From a virus, in IMG/VR virus record IMGVR_UViG_3300029319_000053, positions 1-57,682 of that record: a stretch of DNA of 57,682 bases; one strand, 5' to 3'. The notes under the pieces were generated by a model that did not search any database, was not told the DNA's origin, and saw only the letters and a program-made list of their open reading frames with translations. Position numbers and translations under genes: made by a program. This document shows positions 19,597 to 45,962 of the stretch, piece by piece. Numbering within the stretch: the first letter of the stretch is position 1; the number at the start of each line of letters is the position of its first letter.

Positions 19597-21348
19597 TTAT
19601 ACAGTATACACTTTTAATGGTTTCTCTTTACCTTTTACTTGAATCTTTCCGTGTGGGGAACATTTGTCCACTTTTTCTGCTGTACGTTCTCCAATAAGAA
19701 TATCCACTCCATATTTTTTAGTTGCACTTTCTAATCGTGCAGCTATATTCACAGCATCTCCTATAGCTGAATAATCAAATCTTGTATTACTGCCCATGTT
19801 TCCTACTACAGCTTCACCCGTATTTATACCTATACCTATGGCAATTGGTTCAGGCAATTCTTTCTGCAGCATACGCATTGCCGTGCGCATATCACGAGCA
19901 CAGGCGACAGCACGTTGTTCATGTTTATCAATCATTAGGGGGGAATTGAATATGGCCATACATGCGTCGCCTATGAATTTGTCCACCATCCCACCGTGGG
20001 CCTGGATGCACGTAACTTGTTCAGTTAATACTCTATTCATTATTTCTGTTACTTGTTCAGGTTCTAACTTTTCAGATAAGTTTGTAAATCCCCTAACATC
20101 AGTAAACAAAAACGTGCAAGTTCTACGTTCTCCTCCTAATTTAAGTAAGCTAGGATCTTTTTGTAATCGTGCAACTTGTCTGGGATCCAGATAGTGCTCG
20201 AACTGTTTTTTTATCTGTTGTCTTAATTTATATTGTTCCCCAAACCTTAACCAAAATTCTTGTACGGATGTAAGTGTTATAGCTACTGCGCTATAACTAA
20301 AGTCTATAAGTATATTATTTCGTACAAACCATACTGCAGCTATAGCAATACTTGTATACAGAACAATCATACCAACCATAGTGCCTGCAACGGGTAAACT
20401 ACGTATTATAATTATGCTTAATATTAAACATCCTATCAGTATAAGTAATTCATATAATAGGCTTGCACCCGGTATTTGAGGCACATTTACTGTTAAACTT
20501 TCAGCCATTGCAGCTTGTACTTCATGCGGATACAACAACCCAGCTGGCGTAGCTATTTGAGGCATGACACCTTTTGCAGTCACACCCACAAACACAAACC
20601 TATCTTTTACATCCATCTCTTGAAGCGTAGTTCGTGGAGTATCACTCCATGTTACCCATCGTCTTCCTATTTTATCTACTGGTATTTGTGCATAATTAGG
20701 TAAAGTAAGCTCTACAATCTCACTCTTCTGGCCCTTAATAATGTACGTATCTGACCCAGATATCACCTTCATAACTTCCATACCAAATGCCGGCGTCCAA
20801 CCATCTGGTGTTTGTAACAATAAAGGTAATCTTCTTACTAATTTATCTACATCTGTTCGTGCAACAGCCAAGCCCTGGCTGCTAACATTTGCAAGTTCGT
20901 ACGTATTTTGTATCACACCCTGTGCAGGAATCGCTTGTACGGGAATCCCATCGCCTAATATAACTGTGCCTGTTGTTGGGGGGTAGTTCCCATTATCATT
21001 TTCAAACATTGCAAGAACGCTTGGTGTGCCTGCCAACGCATCAGCAAAAGCTTTATCTCCACCAAATCTATCTGGTTGAGGAAAGGCGACGACCCAACCC
21101 ACGCCCCAAGCACCTGCCTCTATGAGGTCTGAATGAATTTCAGCAAGTTCTTGACGAGGGAACGGCCAGCCGCCCATCATGGAAACATCTTCTTCTGTTA
21201 TATCTAGTAATACAAAAGTGCCAGAAGGTTCAGGTATCTGCACAAGAGCATCAAATGTTTTTAACTTAAGGACTTCGAGAGCTTGCCAATTAAATAATAA
21301 TGGCATACATAGTATTGGTATGCTAAGTAACGAAATCCATTTCTTCAT
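19597..21348 (-). CDS. Membrane CHASE2-adenylate cyclase
   Basis: The 583-residue protein begins with an anchor (residues 5-20), followed by an extracytoplasmic CHASE2 sensor (FDALVQIP, WPFPR at 61-65, FPQPDRFGGD at 89-98). Three membrane segments span about 298-365. A class III nucleotidyl cyclase domain follows from about 405. The metal-binding Asp residues (D417 in FTDVRGFT, D461 in GDACMAIF), the adenine-selecting Lys457 and Asp525, and the transition-state Asn534 and Arg538 are all present, so an active adenylate cyclase is expected. ATGA couples it to the FecR gene. Membrane sensing linked to cAMP synthesis is rare in phages; recent transfer from a bacterium is likely, as FecR/CHASE2-cyclase pairs are common there. 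Confidence 0.92.
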   Translation of the reverse strand: MKKWISLLSIPILCMPLLFNWQALEVLKLKTFDALVQIPEPSGTFVLLDITEEDVSMMGGWPFPRQELAEIHSDLIEAGAWGVGWVVAFPQPDRFGGDKAFADALAGTPSVLAMFENDNGNYPPTTGTVILGDGIPVQAIPAQGVIQNTYELANVSSQGLAVARTDVDKLVRRLPLLLQTPDGWTPAFGMEVMKVISGSDTYIIKGQKSEIVELTLPNYAQIPVDKIGRRWVTWSDTPRTTLQEMDVKDRFVFVGVTAKGVMPQIATPAGLLYPHEVQAAMAESLTVNVPQIPGASLLYELLILIGCLILSIIIIRSLPVAGTMVGMIVLYTSIAIAAVWFVRNNILIDFSYSAVAITLTSVQEFWLRFGEQYKLRQQIKKQFEHYLDPRQVARLQKDPSLLKLGGERRTCTFLFTDVRGFTNLSEKLEPEQVTEIMNRVLTEQVTCIQAHGGMVDKFIGDACMAIFNSPLMIDKHEQRAVACARDMRTAMRMLQKELPEPIAIGIGINTGEAVVGNMGSNTRFDYSAIGDAVNIAARLESATKKYGVDILIGERTAEKVDKCSPHGKIQVKGKEKPLKVYTV

Positions 21349-22433
21349 CCTGACCCCTGTGTGATTGTAATAGTAGAATTACCTCCACCATTAACTACAA
21401 TCTGTTGGTATTTACCATCCTGTATTAAGATAATAGTGTAACCTTGAGCACTGTTTACCGTCAACTGTGCATTTTGATTGACCTTTCTTTGGAATGCAAT
21501 TTGTTCGCCTTGCAATAAAGTAATTATTTGAGTTTCTAAATCTTGTCCTATTTCTGTGCCTTGTATTGAAGTACCTACAGTCAATTTTTTAGTATCTAAC
21601 TCATCTATTTCTTCTATAATTTCTAATAAATCTTCAAAAAAGTTTATATCTAAAAAGTTTATATCTAGCTCTGTAAACTCTAATGTATCCTCAGCTAAAT
21701 AATCTTGCTCTAGCTCATTAAACTCTAAATAGTCTATATCTAATATAGCTCCGCTATCTGCTACGGACGTTGTGGATGACTCTGTGGATAAGTCTTGTTC
21801 GTCCGGAGGCGTAACAATAAGCATGTTATCTATTACATCTAAAGTAAGATCAAGTATTACAGGTTTGCTTGGGGTTGTTTCCCATACTTCTACAGTTGTA
21901 GCTTGGTAGGGTTTGTTAAGAGTAACGCTACCTGTAGCAGTAGTAACAAGTATCTCACCACTAGAAATACCGTTAGCGTCAGGTAATAAAATAATGAGAG
22001 AACGCCCCAGTTCATCAACCGTGCATGTAAAATCTGTACCTCTGATAGCAATATCAGCGGTAGGTGTGGATAGTCTAATATTCTTTTTATCAATTTTGCC
22101 TAACCTACTGCTTATAAATCTAGCCGTGCCACTTGCAAATTGCAGAGCCATTTTACCTTTTGAAGGATCCGGGTCAAATATATATTCAGTAATAACTAAT
22201 TTAGAGTTTTCAGTTAAACGTACAATAGAGTTGTCCAGGAAAGTAATTCCTACACGGCCCGCATTAGTGCGGACATCGTCCATTTGTTGAATGCCAAAGT
22301 CTAACTCAGCCCCGTAAGACTTGTCTCGTATTACTTCAGCAGAGCCATTTAGCTCAGATATATCTCCAATATTAGCAGCTTGTGCTTGTACCGCCGTCGT
22401 TTTGAATAACGCACACAGTACCATTATTGCCAT
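21345..22433 (-). CDS. Secreted FecR-domain protein
   Basis: The chosen start (Met at 22433) gives a Sec signal peptide MAIMVLCALFKTTAVQAQA. A FecR domain follows, with NIGDISELNGSAEV and the family hallmark STPTADIAIRGTDF near 122-135. Then comes an unusual acidic, Leu/Phe-rich stretch (about 226-286, e.g. LEFTELDINFLDINFFEDLL) and an end reading GGGNSTITITQGSG, which resembles a curlin repeat. Starts up to 22550 keep the frame open, but overlap the curlin gene by 180 bases. FecR domains act in the periplasm in signal relay. Bacterial genes of this kind often sit beside CHASE2-cyclases, as here. Confidence 0.82.
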   Translation of the reverse strand: MAIMVLCALFKTTAVQAQAANIGDISELNGSAEVIRDKSYGAELDFGIQQMDDVRTNAGRVGITFLDNSIVRLTENSKLVITEYIFDPDPSKGKMALQFASGTARFISSRLGKIDKKNIRLSTPTADIAIRGTDFTCTVDELGRSLIILLPDANGISSGEILVTTATGSVTLNKPYQATTVEVWETTPSKPVILDLTLDVIDNMLIVTPPDEQDLSTESSTTSVADSGAILDIDYLEFNELEQDYLAEDTLEFTELDINFLDINFFEDLLEIIEEIDELDTKKLTVGTSIQGTEIGQDLETQIITLLQGEQIAFQRKVNQNAQLTVNSAQGYTIILIQDGKYQQIVVNGGGNSTITITQGSG

Positions 22434-23070
22434 TAGATATAATTTTAAGCCAGTCCCTAGCCAATGTAGATGATTGCGTAATGTTAAAAGTCCTGCTGTT
22501 GCCTGTTTGGTCAAGATAGAAATATCCATTTTGATATCCACTTCCGTCAAATGTTATTGAGTTAGAGTCCCCATCCACGTCTACATAAGATGTGCCTAGG
22601 TCATAATCAATGTCAAAATCAAACTCGTTGCTATCTCCATTAATTATCCAGTCTAAGTCAAGTGTCGAAGCTAAAGCATTAGTACCAACATTTAAATCAA
22701 AGTCGTTACTAGAACCAGTTACGTCTACATTGTAGTTACCTGAATCTGCGCCATATGTATTGGTTGGGTCTACTTGTATATCGAATACGTTGCTATCTCC
22801 ATCAAACTCAAAAAAGCCTGTAATGCTATCTCCTAAGATATCACCTAAGAATTTGTTTGAGCTACCTATCTGATTTATATCTAAAGTAAGATTTAAACCA
22901 TCAAGATCGAGCGCGGTCATAGTACCACTAACAGCATTTAATCCACCGATGATGTTAGATGAACCTAATTGTTCTATATCTATGTTTGCGTTATTCCCGG
23001 ACTGGTCAACATATACTTCATTGTCAGCATACAAAAAACCAACTAATAGTAAGGGTAAAAGTTTTTTCAT
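22372..23070 (-). CDS. Secreted curlin-like repeat protein (CsgA/B-like)
   Basis: A short Sec signal peptide (MKKLLPLLLVGFLYA) is followed by eight or nine imperfect repeats of about 20-25 residues, each with a (Q/D)-x-x-G-x-S-N core: IEQLGSSN, INQIGSSN, FDGDSN, VTGSSN, INGDSN, VDGDSN, LDQTGNS. Curlin repeats have Q-x-G-x-x-N at the same spacing. The first two and the last match well. The middle ones have Asp in place of Gln, making the protein acidic. With csgG and csgF directly upstream, it is the obvious candidate substrate for export and surface fibre formation. It ends with two cysteines (TVCVIQ, SC). GGAGTTATAA precedes the ATG. Confidence 0.8.
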   Translation of the reverse strand: MKKLLPLLLVGFLYADNEVYVDQSGNNANIDIEQLGSSNIIGGLNAVSGTMTALDLDGLNLTLDINQIGSSNKFLGDILGDSITGFFEFDGDSNVFDIQVDPTNTYGADSGNYNVDVTGSSNDFDLNVGTNALASTLDLDWIINGDSNEFDFDIDYDLGTSYVDVDGDSNSITFDGSGYQNGYFYLDQTGNSRTFNITQSSTLARDWLKIISNGNNGTVCVIQNDGGTSTSC

Positions 23071-23882
23071 TTATAACTCCAATATCCAGCTTGTTCACCC
23101 TCCTTGATAATTTCTAATACGGCTGTTTCTATGGCAGAACGCAAAGCAAGTCCTCCAGACTCATTTCGCACCACACCACTTTCTATCTCTACTAATTCAG
23201 TACCAGCTTCAATAAAACGAAACACGTCGTCTGTTAATGATACACTAAGAATGGTCTTAGATACTAGTTTTTCAAGTAACACCTGACCTGAGTTTACAGA
23301 CACAAGACGCAATTGTATGGTTATTGAGTCTGTTCTATAAGCCTTAGATATACCAATCCCTAAATATCTAGCACCTGCCCCACCAGATGTTACATTAGAT
23401 TCATATGAAACTACTGACCCTTCTAATAATAAACCTGCAAACAACAAAGTACCTATCTTTGTATTGTCTTTATTCTCAGTTCTACCACTACGGATTATCT
23501 GGCGTTCTTTAGTTAAGTTATCTAACCCACCTCTTTCTACTACGGTAAAAAAACCCCCATTTTGTTTACATGCGTCTTTAAGAGCTTTGATAAGATAGGC
23601 GCTAGGTTGTTGAGTTATAGCGGTAGAGAAGCTAGCATACATAGAATTACTAAGTCTTTGACCTGTTTGGTCTGTAAATGCGCTTCCGTACACAGCTACA
23701 GTTGGTTTTCTTTCAGGCGTACGGCATTCTTGCAAGTCTGTTATAACTAGCTCTTCTATTTGTGCTGATTCGATTTTCCGTATCGGGGCTATGTTATTTT
23801 CTATAGGGTCTTCTATTAATAACGAAGCGCAACTAGAAAGTAAAAGAACCGATAGGTACCGTAATTTCTGTAGTATTGCCAT
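23067..23882 (-). CDS. csgG: CsgG, curli secretion channel lipoprotein
   Basis: The 271-residue product (E. coli CsgG has 277) has lipobox LSSC with Cys18. It aligns well with CsgG through VVERGGLDNLTKERQIIRS, GGAGARYLGIG, TKTILS-like SKTILSVSL and FRFIEAGTELVE, up to the C-terminal YWSYK. In E. coli CsgG forms a nonameric outer-membrane pore. Its constriction residues Tyr51, Asn55 and Phe56 align here with Ser, Ser and Phe (SNSMYASFSTA), so the ring may be wider or differ in selectivity. ATGA links it to the curlin gene. The upstream csgF gene overlaps its start by 50 bases. Confidence 0.95.
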   Translation of the reverse strand: MAILQKLRYLSVLLLSSCASLLIEDPIENNIAPIRKIESAQIEELVITDLQECRTPERKPTVAVYGSAFTDQTGQRLSNSMYASFSTAITQQPSAYLIKALKDACKQNGGFFTVVERGGLDNLTKERQIIRSGRTENKDNTKIGTLLFAGLLLEGSVVSYESNVTSGGAGARYLGIGISKAYRTDSITIQLRLVSVNSGQVLLEKLVSKTILSVSLTDDVFRFIEAGTELVEIESGVVRNESGGLALRSAIETAVLEIIKEGEQAGYWSYK

Positions 23883-24351
23883 CTGGGTCTGTTATCTTTA
23901 AGGTTATCATTGTACCATCTTCACTTACACTATACTCAATAGTATTACCCATCAATTCAATGATACCTTGTGTTTGAGGAGTGTCTCCAAACAAAGCATC
24001 TACTAGTTGTCTCGATAACTGTGCATATATTCTAGACTCTAAGTTACGTATAAATCTTGCAAGCGTAGTGTTTTCTGCATCTCTTTTAAGCTGTTCTTTA
24101 TAAGCTTTTAGTTCTGCTTTAATATTTTCTTTACGATTAAACTCTTGGTTCTCAATAGTAAGATAATGTGAACTAGTGCCTACTCCACTAAAACTAGGGT
24201 TTTTAAAGCCATGCACTATTTGATCTGCTTTTAAATTTAAACCTATTATTCCTAAAAATAAAATAAGGCCTATTACTAATACAACTTTATACAGAACTAT
24301 TTTTTCTGCATATTCTTTTTCTAATTGTTTTTTAGTCTTTTCTTTGGTCAT
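23833..24351 (-). CDS. csgF: CsgF, curli assembly factor
   Basis: The start chosen is ATG at 24351, after GGCGGATAGAG; a TTG start at 24369 is possible. After a charged N-terminus (MTKEKTKKQLEKEYAEK) comes a hydrophobic segment ending LNLKA, then QIVHGFKNPSFSG, the match to CsgF FxFRNPNFGG. The second half carries LESRIYAQLSRQLVDALFG and the closing strand pair VSEDGTMITLKITDPDGNTT, as in CsgF. In E. coli CsgF docks into the CsgG pore and helps nucleate fibres. The N-terminal extension (172 aa here versus 138) is unusual and may keep it membrane-anchored. It is the first gene of the curli cassette, overlapping the holin-like gene by 20 bases. Confidence 0.85.
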   Translation of the reverse strand: MTKEKTKKQLEKEYAEKIVLYKVVLVIGLILFLGIIGLNLKADQIVHGFKNPSFSGVGTSSHYLTIENQEFNRKENIKAELKAYKEQLKRDAENTTLARFIRNLESRIYAQLSRQLVDALFGDTPQTQGIIELMGNTIEYSVSEDGTMITLKITDPDGNTTEITVPIGSFTF

Positions 24352-24682
24352 CTCTATCCGCCTTGGCAATTTTATTGCTATCTATAAGTTGAGGCACGCC
24401 AAGAATAGTTTTAATCAAAGTGTCTTGTCTTATAATTTCATTGTCTAAACTACGCACCCTGTCTATTAATGCTACTAAAATACCATGCTGTGAGTCAAGT
24501 TTAGTGCCAAGCCTTTGTTCTACGGCGCTTATTTGTTCTGCTACTTTATCATCGACAGTGTCTAATTTTGTTTCCATACCGTCAACAATACGCATTATTA
24601 ATTTATAAATAAACCACCCTAAACCTAGAGCAGCTGCAATAGGAAAACCTACTTCTTGGATTACAGTGACTGCTGATTCCAT
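24332..24682 (-). CDS. Holin-like membrane protein with coiled coil
   Basis: The start overlaps the previous stop (TGATG). One N-terminal membrane segment (about residues 8-30, VGFPIAAALGLGWFIYKLIM) is followed by a coiled coil of about 70 residues (DDKVAEQISAVEQRLGTKLD). This build matches phage holins of the BhlA/UviB kind or antiholin-like proteins. It lies between the 3-TM holin candidate and the curli genes, so it is probably part of the lysis group. Confidence 0.7.
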   Translation of the reverse strand: MESAVTVIQEVGFPIAAALGLGWFIYKLIMRIVDGMETKLDTVDDKVAEQISAVEQRLGTKLDSQHGILVALIDRVRSLDNEIIRQDTLIKTILGVPQLIDSNKIAKADRDDQRKD

Positions 24683-25152
24683 CAGTCTTGTTTATTGGAG
24701 GCCCCAAAATAAAATGATATTACTGCAGAAGCTAAGCCACCAAGATAGCCTAAGACCAAATTAATTAGAGCCTCACTGTTTTGTTCTGGTGGTTGAAGAG
24801 TTACGAGAAAAATATAACCAAGAAAACCACCAACCATGGCTATACCTATAATTCTAGCTGTCCAATCTTTACTAAATGTGTTTCGTGCGTGTTGTTTTTC
24901 TTGAGCTTCTAAATCGTATAGATCTATGTCTAACTGTTTCATTTTAGTTTCAAACTCTTTTTCTGCTTTTTTGATTTCAATTAGCTGTTCAGGAGTAGCA
25001 TTTTGTATAGCTTTCTCTAAAGAAGCAGGATCATTTTCTACACCTAATACTTTTGATATGACATCTCCTGCCATACCACCTAACGGTCCGCCTAGCGCAG
25101 TCCCTAATGTTGGAGCGACGCTCCCTATTATATTACCCAGTAACTTCTTCAT
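24682..25152 (-). CDS. Holin of the 3-TM (GTA_holin_3TM) type
   Basis: ATG at 25152 or TTG at 25161 is possible; the latter lies 13 bases after GGAGGAGC. Amphipathic Gly-rich N-terminus (GTALGGPLGGMAGDVISKVLG), a charged coiled coil, then two hydrophobic segments at about residues 106-126 and 133-155 (IIGIAMVGGFLGYIFLV, LGYLGGLASAVISFYFG). This is the layout of the GTA/phage 3-TM holin family. It would permeabilise the inner membrane at the end of infection, letting the lysozyme (30029-30484) reach the wall. It overlaps the upstream nuclease gene by about 20 bases. Confidence 0.75.
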   Translation of the reverse strand: MKKLLGNIIGSVAPTLGTALGGPLGGMAGDVISKVLGVENDPASLEKAIQNATPEQLIEIKKAEKEFETKMKQLDIDLYDLEAQEKQHARNTFSKDWTARIIGIAMVGGFLGYIFLVTLQPPEQNSEALINLVLGYLGGLASAVISFYFGASNKQD

Positions 25153-25555
25153 ATTTTCCAAGCTTTAACAGCTCCTCCTTGTTTATTAAATGTTGTGCTT
25201 CTATATCATCTTTGCTTTGCCCTGTGTAGGCAACAGCAAGGTAGTTATCAATAAGCGCTTGGTTTAGATCTACGTCATCTGCAACGATAACCCCTAGAAC
25301 TCTACCGAACTTCCCTTTCTTGTCTAGTTTTGTTTGTATTTTTAAATCATCAGCGTGCAGGATAGCATCTGATAAAAACTTACCAGCTAGTTTACCTCTA
25401 GCTTTTTCGTCTAAATCTCTTGTTCGTGATTCTGGCGTGTCGATTCCGTATAACCTGACACGAGACTTATATGATATATCAAAACCTAAATCTATTATAG
25501 CGTCGACAGTGTCTCCATCTACCACCCGGGTTATTTCGCACCTATACTCGTACAT
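25133..25555 (-). CDS. Staphylococcal nuclease-like (SNase/thermonuclease) protein
   Basis: The 140-residue product has the SNase pattern: VVDGDTVDAII, YKSRVRLYGIDTPESR and KFGRVLGVIV. It has the metal-binding Asp residues, catalytic Arg (RVRLYG), Glu (TPES) and second Arg (GRVLG). It cuts DNA or RNA and needs calcium. There is no signal peptide, so it acts in the cytoplasm, perhaps degrading host DNA, or is released at lysis. TAATG couples it to the upstream small basic gene. Confidence 0.88.
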   Translation of the reverse strand: MYEYRCEITRVVDGDTVDAIIDLGFDISYKSRVRLYGIDTPESRTRDLDEKARGKLAGKFLSDAILHADDLKIQTKLDKKGKFGRVLGVIVADDVDLNQALIDNYLAVAYTGQSKDDIEAQHLINKEELLKLGKYEEVTG

Positions 25556-40502: not shown

Positions 40503-43500
40503 CTATAAATTGTTGTAAAGAGGAGTTAAGTCTTTTAGCCTTAAATCTCCTGTAAATAAATCATACCCTTTTTCTACAGTCGGTCCAAGTGGGCCTACCC
40601 ACATAGGGTCTCCATACCTTCTGTCTTCCATAAACAAAGGAAGCGCTAGAGTAAAAGGCCCAAGCACCCCGGACCTATCGATAATCTCTGTACTATACTC
40701 ACCCCAATCCATAGTCTGTGACCTTCTGTAGTTTTTATCCTCTGGGCTCACCCCTGGCAACAGCCAAGCTAATCCAACTTTAAATCTTTCACGTAGATCA
40801 AACCCCAACATAGTCAATGGTAATAAGGTTGCAGCACCTAAGAACAAAGGTATGGCTGCGCCTGTTAACCCAGCCTCTGTATACCTGGCTTGCATCTCAT
40901 TCATAGAGCCACCTACGATAGTTTTACCATAAGCGTAGAAGAAAGACTTAAGTTGCCACACTAAAGCAAACCTAGGATCAGAAGCCCAAGTAGGTCTTTC
41001 TGCAGCATTTGGCCTTACTATAGACTCATCTACAAACCTAGCTAAAGCTAATTTTATTTTTTCATTCCCAGCTTCATTAATATTACCACCAGCCCAGTTG
41101 TTTACCTCTTCTGCTGTCAACCCTAACTCTTTTAAATATCTTATTGATCTTTGATTACCGGCTGCAGCTTTTTTACCATTATCTAGTAAGAATGCTTTAC
41201 CCATACCCGCTGCAAATATCCTAGTAAATCTAGTGAACTGTTCTAATCCTATACCTCTAAAAAACTTATTAGTAAATTTTTTAGTATTTTCACTTGTATA
41301 ATCTAGTTCCCCAGCGCCTACAAATGTCTCCATCATTGCATCAATACCAACAACTCCTATGTCTTTAGCTAACTGAGCAGCCTCTTCTTTATTATTGATC
41401 ATATTAAAAATAGTACTGGCTGCAGTTCGTAATGCTCCAAAGTCTTTAGAACGCAGTATTGGTCCTGCTAAATCTGGAAAAGAAGCAAAAGTAGCAAAAG
41501 TTAAAAGGGTAGTTACATTAAAGGCTAATCCTATTTGATTAGCCCCTCTAAACAAGCCACTTGAAATAGGTTCAACTTTTCCTAACATTGCCATAACTGT
41601 TTTTGTAGCTTGTTCTCTTTGCTTAGGGTCTTGTATTTCACTTAAAAGTTTTTCTATTTGTTGAGGTCCGCCTCTTTTATTTAATTCTACTTTTTTAACG
41701 GTATTGTCAATATATTTTTGTAAAGCTCTATGTGGGTCTTCTAATACTTCTATATTCCTTAGCGCTTCAGTAGGTATTCTAGAGTAAAGTTTTACTCTAG
41801 CTTTAGTTAAACCTAAAGAATATCTAGCGTGAGAAGGTATATTTCTTTGTTTTCTAAGTTCTTTAAGAGTTTCTTCTACTGTTCCCATTTTTTCTGCTTG
41901 TTTTAAAGCAGCTAATTCTATTTCATTTGTAGCGTCTGAAAGTGTAATCTCTACACTTAAATCAGCCTCGGCTTTTGTTAAACCGGGGTTATACTCTATT
42001 AATAAATTAGCTAAAGCTTCTGCTTTGCTTTTATCACCTGCTATCTCTTGTATAGCTAAAGAACGGGGAAAGAAGTTAGAAAGCCTGTCCACTCCTATTT
42101 CTTGTAAATTTAATTTATCATAGTGTTCTACTAACCATTCTCTAATTCGTTGTGCTTGTGGGCCTAACTCTTCTGTGGGTTTACTAGATTCTGCATCCAA
42201 AAGGATATTCATTTTATCTTGCGTCATGTCACCAGTTTTAAACACGCCTAAAATATCTTGTATCTCATTCATTTTTGCTCTAGCTTGTGTGACAGTTGCA
42301 GTGAGAAGCCCTACTTCTTCGGTAGTTTGAGATTGGCCTCTAAACATTTGTGCTAACTTTTTCCCAGCTGGGCCATACCCTCTAAGTAAATTGTCTTTAG
42401 CAAATAAAACAACTTTTAAAAACTCTCCTACTCCTACTAAATTTCCTGTTTCTTTTAGTCTATTTACTGTTTGTTGTATTTTTTGTGGAGCTTTAGGATC
42501 ACCTAACGGTATCTCTTTACCTATCTTCTCTACCGTTTGTTGTATTTCTGCACTTGCTAAATACTTTGTCATAAAATGACCGGGGTCATTATTTATTCTT
42601 TTTAACTCCACTACATAGTCAGCAAAAGCAGGACTTACTCCATATCTTCTAGTAGCAAAATTACTAAATTCTTTTACAAAAGCTTGTATCTTACCTGCTA
42701 AACGTTTGAAGAAAGAGTCTGTTTGGTTTTGTGCTTTTTTTGTTTCATCGAGCAAATAAGAAGCTACTTGATCTGACATCCATTCGTTAAAGCCTTGGTC
42801 ATCATTTGTATACTGAGCAGTGTCATTACCTTCTCTGTCTTGGTTAAATGCATTAAGTAAGCCCTGTCTTAGTTTAGGTATACTTAAACTTTTTTCTAAT
42901 TCTTGATTTACAAAAGAGTGGCCTATCTCATGAGCTACAACAAATGCCCTAGCTCCTTGTTCTGCTTTGTTAAGTCCTTCTCTAGTTTGTACAAGAAGAA
43001 CATCAAAATTTGCACCCTTTATATTTCTACCCCTTGTAGAACCTTCTGGGCCCATATCTTGCGTAAGGGCAGCCTGAACTCTAGTTAATAGATCTGCATC
43101 TCCTTCTAAAGACTCTAAAGTAATATCCTCTGTAGTACTAAATACTTTGTAGGCTTTTTTCAAACCTAATTTAGTATTAGCGATACGTTGAAAATCTGTA
43201 AGAAAAGTAGCATCTAAGTGTTGCTCAACCACACTAGTAAAAGAAACACCGGGTTTAGGACCTGCTGCTCTTGTAGACCCTTTTGCATAAGGATTTTTAA
43301 ATAGTCTTTGATTAAACTCATCTTCTATTCTTTGGTCTGGCAAAGTAGTTTGGTCTTCAACTTGAACAAATTGCGGTGTTTGTCTACCTGTTTCTAGGTC
43401 AACGCCTTGACCAGTTTCTACTGTTTCTAATCTAGATTCTTCTTGTATATCTTGCCTTGGATCAAATCCAGCCTCAAGGTCTCCACTTTTCACTTGGCTT

Positions 43501-45962
43501 TCTCTACCCCTTTGTAGATCATTTAAAGTAAATCTTTCTCTACCTTTATTCTTTGTATAAACAATAGCTCCTGGGTCATTAAAAGTTTCACTATTTACAA
43601 GTTTGCCGTCATAAAATAAAGCGTAGTTGCCTTCTAAAGAACCTAAGATAAAAGCAAACCCATCTATAGCACTACCAAACTCATCCTGCGATAAACTTTC
43701 ACCAAACCTTCTAGCAAGAACTCTACCTTGATTAACAAGAGTTGGCATATCTATTCCTACAGGCTTATCCATCTCAGGTGTTTCTATTGTAAACCTGCTA
43801 TTTCTTGCGTTTCTTTTTGCTCTATTTACTACTTTTGTTATATCTGCAGGACTAGGTTGAGTTACCCCTGGAGTGTAGCCCATGTTGTATTTAATTAAAT
43901 TAAATCCACCTCTTTCAGTATTTTCATTAATCTTATAAAAAGCACCAGTTGGATCATTTACATTCTCTCTTATAAAAGCTTTTAATAAACTCTCTGAGTA
44001 TCTTTTTTTACTTATGTCTTGGTCAAACTCTCTTTCAAACTCTGTTGGCACTAAAGTTCTAGCTTCTTCTACTAAAGCTTGGTCGTAAGTTATATCGGTA
44101 GAAGGTATAGCCCAAACTTGTGTACCTTTTTGTCTAGGTGTTATAGGGTCAAGAAAAGAACCCCTACCTTCTTCTACAGCAGTTGGTTCAGGGGTAAGTG
44201 CAAAAATATTTCCTAATTCTTCTTCATCTAATCCCTCATCCTGCATAGCGTCCATACGTTCTTCTACAACAGATTCTAAATCTCTTGTCTCTACAGTAAG
44301 ACCGGGTGTTTTATTTATGTATGCTTCTGCTGCTGCTATGGCTTGCGCCTCTCCTTCTACAGAAGTTGACTGTTCCCAACGTGTAGAACCATCTTCATCT
44401 TTTACACGAACTGCTAAAGTGTCTTCTGACCTTCTTGGTCTAGTATAGCCTAAGTTACTAGCTAACCACTCGTCTAAAAGATTTTTATCTCGAACATTTG
44501 CAGACATAACATTCGCAAATGCTTCTGCTACTTCAGGGTTATTAGTATAAATAGTGCCTACATCTGCTATTTCTACCGCTTGTACGTTTGGATATTTAGC
44601 TAACATTTCAGGTTCAAGTGTTTCCATAGTTTCTGCATTTGCATTAACTACGTAAACTAAATCTCTTCTTATAGTAGGACTATCCATATCAGCAAACTGT
44701 TTTCTTATATCAGCTTCGCTTTCCGCTAATACAGTTCCAGCTTTATCAAGATCTTGCATCTCTGTTGTAAATGCAATCTCATGGGCTTGCTTTGCTTGGT
44801 CGTACATCTTACCAGCTACGGCAGATGGAGTACCAATAGCCGTACCTACACCAAGACCACCAAAAAACCCAGCAAATAAAGCGTTAGCCCTATCTAAATT
44901 AGCCATAGTTTTTGTGTACTCTTCGTCTATTCTAAATTTTTGTTGCACGGACAACTCCTCTTGTCCTGCTTCGGCTAGGCCTTCAGCTACTGAAGTAGTA
45001 GCTGCTACCTGTGCAATCCTAGCTCTCTTACTTCTTATTGGAGCATCTTTTGCAGTATTTATGCCTTTAGGTTGTTTTCTTTTAAGCACGTTTGCTACAG
45101 ATTTTGCTACAGCAACCTCACTACCTAAACCAATTGCTGCAAAACCTAAACCTTGCAAAGCAGATTGAAAGCCAGCTTCTTGGTCTATCATGCCTTGTTC
45201 TCCAAAGTCACCAAAAGCAATACCTTGTCCCATAACTTGTTCTTGAGACCCAGCGCCTGTTAAAGCCCCTACTGTGGCTCCTCTACGTAAACGTTTATTA
45301 CGAACACTTGCATAAAGATTTTTAATTAGGGTTTCTTCGTCTGGAGTAAGGGGGTCAAGTTTAGTAGGTCTTTTTTTAACTTTGTTTGCTTCAAGAGCTA
45401 TAAATTTATTTACAACTTTCTGAACTTCTCTTTTGGTATAAGCTTCTTTTGCTACGCTTTGCGGAAGAATAGTTTTTTGTAAAGCCTTCGTTCCTACTTT
45501 TCTACTAACGCCAGCTGTTATAGCTGCACCAGCTCCAGCTCCCGTCATCGCTAAACCTATACTAGCTACAGCAGAAGGAACGAATTGTCCTGTTGCTTGT
45601 ATTGCCTGATTAATAAAACCACCAAAAGTAGGTTGATCTAAAAACTCTTCGAAAGTTTCTGCTCCTGCTAGATAAGGAGCTCCTGCTTGTTGTATGAGTT
45701 GGGCTTGGTTTAGAGCGCTTTCGGCTTTTTCTTCATTGCCCATGATGGCAGCTAAAGACCCTTTAAAATTAACTATTTGAGCTTGGGTGTTAACTACACC
45801 AGTATCTACTGCAGCTTTAAATAATTGTACGGGATCATCTATTGGTACTATTTCGGGAGAGGTATCTTGTATCGCCCCTCTACTAGCTACTGCGTTATCA
45901 GGAACGAATCGATTACTTGCACCAGCTCCTGCAATCTCATTAGTCTCTTTCTTCGATACCAT
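40503..45962 (-). CDS. Giant internal virion protein with zinc peptidase motif
   Basis: At 1,819 residues this is the largest protein here. The first 600 residues have hydrophobic patches and an Ala/Gly-rich region (AVASIGLAMTGAGAGAAITA near 130). HEIGHSFVNQELE around residue 1,010, followed 40-odd residues later by NEWMSDQVASYLL, looks like an HExxH zinc peptidase with a third Glu ligand. The C-terminal 400 residues, with hydrophobic segments and a closing acidic stretch, resemble large polyvalent-protein domains (LPD38-like). Placed between the adaptor and fibre genes, it is probably ejected into the cell with the DNA. It overlaps the upstream 664-aa protein gene by 23 bases. Confidence 0.78.
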   Translation of the reverse strand: MVSKKETNEIAGAGASNRFVPDNAVASRGAIQDTSPEIVPIDDPVQLFKAAVDTGVVNTQAQIVNFKGSLAAIMGNEEKAESALNQAQLIQQAGAPYLAGAETFEEFLDQPTFGGFINQAIQATGQFVPSAVASIGLAMTGAGAGAAITAGVSRKVGTKALQKTILPQSVAKEAYTKREVQKVVNKFIALEANKVKKRPTKLDPLTPDEETLIKNLYASVRNKRLRRGATVGALTGAGSQEQVMGQGIAFGDFGEQGMIDQEAGFQSALQGLGFAAIGLGSEVAVAKSVANVLKRKQPKGINTAKDAPIRSKRARIAQVAATTSVAEGLAEAGQEELSVQQKFRIDEEYTKTMANLDRANALFAGFFGGLGVGTAIGTPSAVAGKMYDQAKQAHEIAFTTEMQDLDKAGTVLAESEADIRKQFADMDSPTIRRDLVYVVNANAETMETLEPEMLAKYPNVQAVEIADVGTIYTNNPEVAEAFANVMSANVRDKNLLDEWLASNLGYTRPRRSEDTLAVRVKDEDGSTRWEQSTSVEGEAQAIAAAEAYINKTPGLTVETRDLESVVEERMDAMQDEGLDEEELGNIFALTPEPTAVEEGRGSFLDPITPRQKGTQVWAIPSTDITYDQALVEEARTLVPTEFEREFDQDISKKRYSESLLKAFIRENVNDPTGAFYKINENTERGGFNLIKYNMGYTPGVTQPSPADITKVVNRAKRNARNSRFTIETPEMDKPVGIDMPTLVNQGRVLARRFGESLSQDEFGSAIDGFAFILGSLEGNYALFYDGKLVNSETFNDPGAIVYTKNKGRERFTLNDLQRGRESQVKSGDLEAGFDPRQDIQEESRLETVETGQGVDLETGRQTPQFVQVEDQTTLPDQRIEDEFNQRLFKNPYAKGSTRAAGPKPGVSFTSVVEQHLDATFLTDFQRIANTKLGLKKAYKVFSTTEDITLESLEGDADLLTRVQAALTQDMGPEGSTRGRNIKGANFDVLLVQTREGLNKAEQGARAFVVAHEIGHSFVNQELEKSLSIPKLRQGLLNAFNQDREGNDTAQYTNDDQGFNEWMSDQVASYLLDETKKAQNQTDSFFKRLAGKIQAFVKEFSNFATRRYGVSPAFADYVVELKRINNDPGHFMTKYLASAEIQQTVEKIGKEIPLGDPKAPQKIQQTVNRLKETGNLVGVGEFLKVVLFAKDNLLRGYGPAGKKLAQMFRGQSQTTEEVGLLTATVTQARAKMNEIQDILGVFKTGDMTQDKMNILLDAESSKPTEELGPQAQRIREWLVEHYDKLNLQEIGVDRLSNFFPRSLAIQEIAGDKSKAEALANLLIEYNPGLTKAEADLSVEITLSDATNEIELAALKQAEKMGTVEETLKELRKQRNIPSHARYSLGLTKARVKLYSRIPTEALRNIEVLEDPHRALQKYIDNTVKKVELNKRGGPQQIEKLLSEIQDPKQREQATKTVMAMLGKVEPISSGLFRGANQIGLAFNVTTLLTFATFASFPDLAGPILRSKDFGALRTAASTIFNMINNKEEAAQLAKDIGVVGIDAMMETFVGAGELDYTSENTKKFTNKFFRGIGLEQFTRFTRIFAAGMGKAFLLDNGKKAAAGNQRSIRYLKELGLTAEEVNNWAGGNINEAGNEKIKLALARFVDESIVRPNAAERPTWASDPRFALVWQLKSFFYAYGKTIVGGSMNEMQARYTEAGLTGAAIPLFLGAATLLPLTMLGFDLRERFKVGLAWLLPGVSPEDKNYRRSQTMDWGEYSTEIIDRSGVLGPFTLALPLFMEDRRYGDPMWVGPLGPTVEKGYDLFTGDLRLKDLTPLYNNL

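Follow-up and report, generated by a model that had tools for sequence, protein, structure and literature searches.

The closest described counterparts of the locus reported here are phage-borne curli genes, treated in three papers, Zaragoza-Solas 2020 (PMC7029224), Buchholz 2022 (PMC9004378) and Wittmers 2022 (PMC9599517). The genes csgF and csgG are known from myophages, where sibling capture, uptake or lysis timing have been proposed as their role (PMC7029224, PMC9004378), and no clumping was observed in cultured Melnitz, one of these phages (PMC9004378). PMC9599517 describes a larger module, which opens with a ‘histidine kinase, sometimes two’ and continues with CsgF, CsgG, CsgA/B, FecR, in many cases another curlin, and adenylate cyclase; it is carried by nine HTVC023P-type genomes and by myophages, and its genes are expressed in marine metatranscriptomes. 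In bacteria, Burkholderia operons combining FecR with a CHASE2-kinase have been linked to biofilm (PMC5192318), and in Sinorhizobium an outer-membrane barrel passes a signal on to CHASE2 cyclases (PMC13001267).

We analysed a window of 57,682 bases (the whole stretch of DNA under study) from the IMG/VR record of a marine virus of bacteria. An initial annotation had recognised genes for CsgF, CsgG, a curlin-repeat protein, FecR and a CHASE2 cyclase, and had supposed that only csgG and csgF were known before, in myophages. All five genes are where it placed them, overlapping or abutting on the minus strand. However, curlin, FecR and cyclase are also present in HTVC008M and Melnitz, and PMC9599517 had already described the full set in 2022, in podoviruses of the HTVC023P type and in pelagimyophages. 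The window thus adds one more carrier to a module already in print.

RESULTS

Layout and carrier of the cassette

The cassette comprises six genes arranged head to tail on the minus strand, from 24682 to 19597, its span being 19597-24682 once the first gene, X, is counted in. As the initial annotation had stated, the set would cover both export and signalling in full, lies in an operon on the late strand of a podovirus and has no CsgE; judging by strand and position it would be expressed late. A search for a separate cassette promoter gave no enrichment over shuffles, and there was no Rfam match to a riboswitch like that of Melnitz. About ten other contigs run collinear with the window across the cassette borders, which rules out a chimeric assembly. 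PHROGs contains one family each for CsgF, CsgG, FecR and the cyclase, so relatives of these four proteins were already present in reference phage genomes.

The cassette had been described as following holin-like genes. This holds for 24682-25161 (minus strand), which encodes two membrane helices and matches GTA_holin_3TM weakly and phrog_1544, but not for 24332-24682, which in the phage records searched is tied to the curli genes. In related loci neither the holin-like nor the nuclease neighbour is constant beside the cassette. A phage lysozyme (PF00959; 30029-30484, minus strand) is also encoded on the late strand, upstream of the cassette and apart from it. Related phages carry insertions between fecR and the cyclase gene (L008 9203-10666; L070 6119-7750; L013 11526-11906; L022 7011-7960), which by eye look like C5 cytosine methyltransferases, a TagD-like cytidylyltransferase and an FkbM-type methyltransferase; in the window fecR and the cyclase gene overlap.

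Eight window proteins, among them portal, major capsid, large terminase, DNA polymerase and helicase, match Pseudomonas phage KPP25 at 29-54% identity, whereas the HTVC023P-type genome MW574966 matches three only. The window capsid protein recurs at 87-96% in five other cassette-bearing contigs. The HTVC023P-type DNA polymerase is found in L044, L046 and L074, with at most weak partial matches in the KPP25-like contigs. An HTVC023P-type identity was rejected on the number of shared proteins and on this polymerase pattern, and the protein matches place the window genome in a KPP25-like podovirus lineage. Together with the distribution over contigs, they put the cassette in at least three phage backgrounds, namely T4-like pelagimyophages, HTVC023P-type podoviruses and the KPP25-like lineage; for the last, the part of the literature searched contained no published report. 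Elsewhere in the window, an 1819-residue protein (40503-45962, minus strand) has a virion structural match (phrog_30152) confined to its C-terminal part.

The putative export genes

The CsgG protein (23067-23882, minus strand; 271 residues) matches the Pfam CsgG family at 1.2e-49, and in a PDB sequence search its residues 48-269 match solved E. coli CsgG (3x2r/6l7a) at 3.7e-39. By family it is an outer-membrane export pore lipoprotein, and it carries a lipobox (...SSC). CsgF (23833-24369, minus strand; 178 residues) has a signal or anchor segment and a near full-length match to Pfam PF10614 (4.4e-15). The alignment of the CsgF N-terminal stretch with solved CsgF (6l7a) is weak (E 0.077); the pore-plug motif F-x-N/S-P-x-F-x-G is kept in 80 of 80 phage CsgFs. 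PMC9004378 suggested that in phages the pairing of CsgF with CsgG has been lost, an idea which the retained plug motif and the near full-length family match weaken.

No match to the CsgE gate was found at E<=1 within the record. We do not treat CsgE as strictly defining, since it is also reported to be absent from the published phage modules (PMC7029224, PMC9599517) and, as PMC7029224 states, E. coli can do without it.

The substrate gene (22372-23070, minus strand) encodes 232 residues with a signal peptide. Its curlin assignment is firm by homology, repeats and an all-beta model, but not by Pfam, where Curlin_rpt stays below the cut-off (E 0.0067; NCBIfam CsgB gives 9.8e-4). It aligns with the annotated curlins of HTVC008M and Melnitz (2e-15 and about 32% identity for HTVC008M), and an N-terminal ADNEIYVDQSG...QLGSSN is conserved among the aligned curlins. 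Six G-x-S-N repeats are spaced 22-33 residues apart, where 0.3 would be expected and none of 2000 shuffles reached that number. The model is solenoid-like (pLDDT 78; structure prediction covered proteins of the window and of the related loci), and a PDB fold search with it gave non-significant matches only, several of them to solenoids. Profile searches of the window returned no second curlin, and none lies between FecR and the cyclase.

FecR and the cyclase

The FecR-domain gene (21345-22550, minus strand) is listed with 401 residues (Pfam FecR 2.4e-12), although the mature start is probably an internal one near 22430, giving about 361. The protein consists of a signal peptide-like N-terminal helix, the FecR domain, an acidic linker of about 130 residues that is modelled as disordered, and a C-terminal tail ending GGGNSTITITQGSG. 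The model of the domain resembles PupR/anti-sigma periplasmic domains, with no match when its profile was searched against PDB sequences. Because the protein has a signal peptide, and there is no cytoplasmic anti-sigma part and no FecI partner or TonB receptor in the cassette, we do not regard it as a ferric-citrate or iron regulator; only the periplasmic FecR domain was matched, and no sigma factor was found among the cassette proteins.

When the C-terminal ends of 47 ORFs of the window were tested, the FecR tail NGGGNSTITITQ proved the best match to the curlin repeat (7.2 bits, the next scoring 1.2), and the I-x-I-x-Q end recurs in 181 of 182 phage FecRs. The same score was reached by 60 of 2000 shuffles and no score was obtained for the tail of the Melnitz FecR, so the resemblance of the tail to a curlin repeat has modest support.

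The last gene (19597-21348, minus strand; 583 residues) encodes CHASE2 (Pfam 6e-31) joined to a class III cyclase (5.7e-22). The metal, substrate and transition-state motifs are intact (FTDVRGF at 415, KFIGD at 457 and FDYSAIGDAVNIAAR at 524), with both metal Asp, the substrate Lys/Asp and the Asn/Arg in place; the K/D pair points to ATP as substrate.

Gene X

The 116-residue X (24332-24682, minus strand) was missed by the initial annotation but is a constant member of the cassette. It has one N-terminal membrane helix (about residues 11-33) followed by a coiled coil, and in other phages occurs singly or, often, as a tandem pair, X1+X2. Since X was detected only in curli phages among 50,697 phage records, it is best read as a phage-specific component of the system, and its absence from records without curli genes makes a general lysis gene unlikely.

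By position and number, X is probably the gene labelled ‘HK’ in PMC9599517. A histidine kinase, which would have HisKA/HATPase_c, is excluded by the absent kinase domain: no HATPase_c was found within the record or in 26 X proteins, and X proteins of 87-116 residues are too short for such an enzyme.

When loci were scanned from the X2 side, CsgF lay within 3 kb in 53 of 80, a further 20 had other genes of the cassette, in many cases on the opposite strand, and seven had none. The X1-X2 pairs with no cassette gene within 3 kb (L482-L485, L487, L513 and L545) could reveal X's own role. X1-X2 and cassette genes also occur together on some very long virus contigs (L519, L544 and L546; 285, 236 and 154 kb), the cassette genes sometimes on the opposite strand.

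Co-inheritance and bacterial counterparts

Around distinct CsgGs in IMG/VR with enough flanking sequence, X was present in 130 of 130 cases, CsgF in 147 of 147, curlin in 148 of 148, FecR in 111 of 111 and the cyclase in 26 of 26, and all 124 distinct complete cassettes have the order X-csgF-csgG-curlin-fecR-cyclase. The loci counted are the closest relatives from the scans, and more distant exceptions may exist. The fixed order and the co-presence of all genes indicate that selection acts on all the genes together and not on the pore alone.

In Hyphomonas sp. TMED17, CsgF, CsgG, curlin, FecR and CHASE2 cyclase are encoded in one run without X (L089 9372-15395); the contig is 705 kb long, and the genes around the run are ordinary chromosomal ones. 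FecR and cyclase thus do occur in a bacterial curli operon, which runs against the published statement on this point. Of 299 genomes from the order around TMED17, 34 had CsgG, and among 20 of these, each taken as a locus with about 1.5 kb of flank, the phage-like set was present in TMED17 alone. In the other loci of the bacterial scan neither FecR nor cyclase is found close to csgG; the exceptions are phage-like contigs that are short or come from bins. FecR lies next to CHASE2 proteins in six bacterial loci, and the pairing also occurs without CsgG. In the CsgG tree, the phage proteins group with that of TMED17 in a single clade (100/99), separate from the remaining bacterial CsgGs, and TMED17 sits inside it on a long branch; the CsgGs of the window lineage make up a clade of their own (100/99), next to L037 and the HTVC023P-type L046 and L074.

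Four likely phage contigs with the cassette (L088, L090, L091 and L166) have been binned into MAGs of Flavobacteriales, Pelagibacter, Sphingobacteriales and Pirellulales, and curli genes read from such bins call for caution.

DISCUSSION

We consider it reasonably probable that the locus is a phage-borne type VIII export module which combines an adhesive fibre with FecR/CHASE2 cAMP signalling. CsgG, with its CsgF plug, would form a pore in the host outer membrane during infection, and the curlin-like beta-solenoid protein would leave through it, as the conserved and intact parts suggest, probably assembling into an adhesive fibre at the surface of the infected cell or close to it. FecR may stay in the periplasm and, with the inner-membrane CHASE2 cyclase, report the state of the pore, envelope or fibre as cAMP; we propose this on the strength of the FecR architecture, the intact cyclase and the Sinorhizobium precedent (PMC13001267). 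X could be a small inner-membrane coiled-coil partner added by the phage. The phage might benefit by keeping sibling cells together, shutting out competing phages or altering the surface.

The homology of CsgG and CsgF over their full length, the plug motif, the intact cyclase motifs and co-inheritance all speak for this reading, as do the bacterial FecR-CHASE2 pairing, in the six loci and in Burkholderia (PMC5192318), and the report of these genes in marine metatranscriptomes (PMC9599517). Against it stand the lack of observed clumping in Melnitz (PMC9004378), the missing CsgE gate, the divergent repeats and the absence of a significant match to a solved fold.

Other uses of the same genes can be imagined. 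A lysis-timing pore, with CsgG and CsgF acting as an outer-membrane pinholin or secretin-like pore and the other genes as accessories, has already been proposed for Melnitz (PMC9004378) and was among the roles offered by the initial annotation. The cassette does adjoin a holin-like gene, and X is small, one-helixed and often paired, like some holin systems. Yet a lysozyme and a separate holin-like gene are already present in this phage, and CsgF and the secreted curlin are always kept, which weakens the idea; FecR and cyclase are just as constant, X is confined to curli phages, and TMED17 has the five genes on a chromosome, where lysis would be senseless. We therefore think a lysis pore quite improbable, and a surface fibre the better bet as the benefit. 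Our doubts are slightly greater still about nutrient import, in which an ungated CsgG pore and FecR as an ‘iron regulator’ would raise siderophore or cofactor uptake in infection. The absent CsgE gate would fit, and import has been suggested (PMC7029224, PMC9599517), but the architecture of FecR and its missing partners disagree with the regulator, and the constant CsgF and curlin would be left unexplained.

The fibre-export reading also has a narrower form, in which the pore has FecR as a further client: the FecR tail would enter CsgG whilst the folded domain, held in the periplasm, took over from CsgE as plug and gauge and was read by CHASE2. The curlin-like tail, its near-invariant end, the long disordered linker and the lack of CsgE are in keeping with this, but the shuffles and the Melnitz tail tell against it, and E. 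coli curli substrates are recognised through the N-terminus. We hold this form to be unlikely. Only a little less unlikely is the combined proposal that X, single or as X1+X2, is a phage-made and mislabelled inner-membrane part, and that the tailed FecR replaces the CsgE gate and reports to the CHASE2 cyclase; if true, fibre export would be linked to cAMP in the infected cell.

Returning to the module as a fibre exporter, phages of very abundant ocean bacteria would be spending several percent of their genome on a system absent from their hosts. That six genes stay together in one order, in a third lineage too, argues for a set working as a unit in infection, and with X named as a part of the system, its function becomes testable gene by gene.

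Compared with E. coli csgDEFG/csgBAC, the window has a homologous CsgG pore and CsgF plug, but it lacks CsgE, CsgC and CsgD, its curlin is divergent, and FecR, the CHASE2 cyclase and X are added. The Burkholderia BiofilmReg operon likewise sets a periplasmic FecR-domain protein beside a CHASE2 membrane sensor, there fused to a histidine kinase and without CsgG (PMC5192318). The TMED17 operon shares the five genes in one run and a CsgG of the phage clade, but has no X and a curlin of 504 residues. HTVC008M (gp014-019) and Melnitz (genes 99-104) have the same gene set and order with X homologues directly upstream; unlike the window, they are T4-like myophages with a second curlin, and their proteins are 30-47% identical to those of the window. 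The pelagiphage T8SS module, as given in PMC9599517, is also found in marine podoviruses, lacks CsgE, CsgC and CsgD, and has the order CsgF-CsgG-CsgA/B-FecR-AC after one or two small genes, an order which the window reproduces. The window departs from it in its KPP25-like carrier, in having no second curlin between FecR and AC, and in a gene at the ‘HK’ place that has no kinase domain. New to this family of systems are the KPP25-like lineage as a third background, X as a member of the cassette, and the chromosomal five-gene operon of TMED17.
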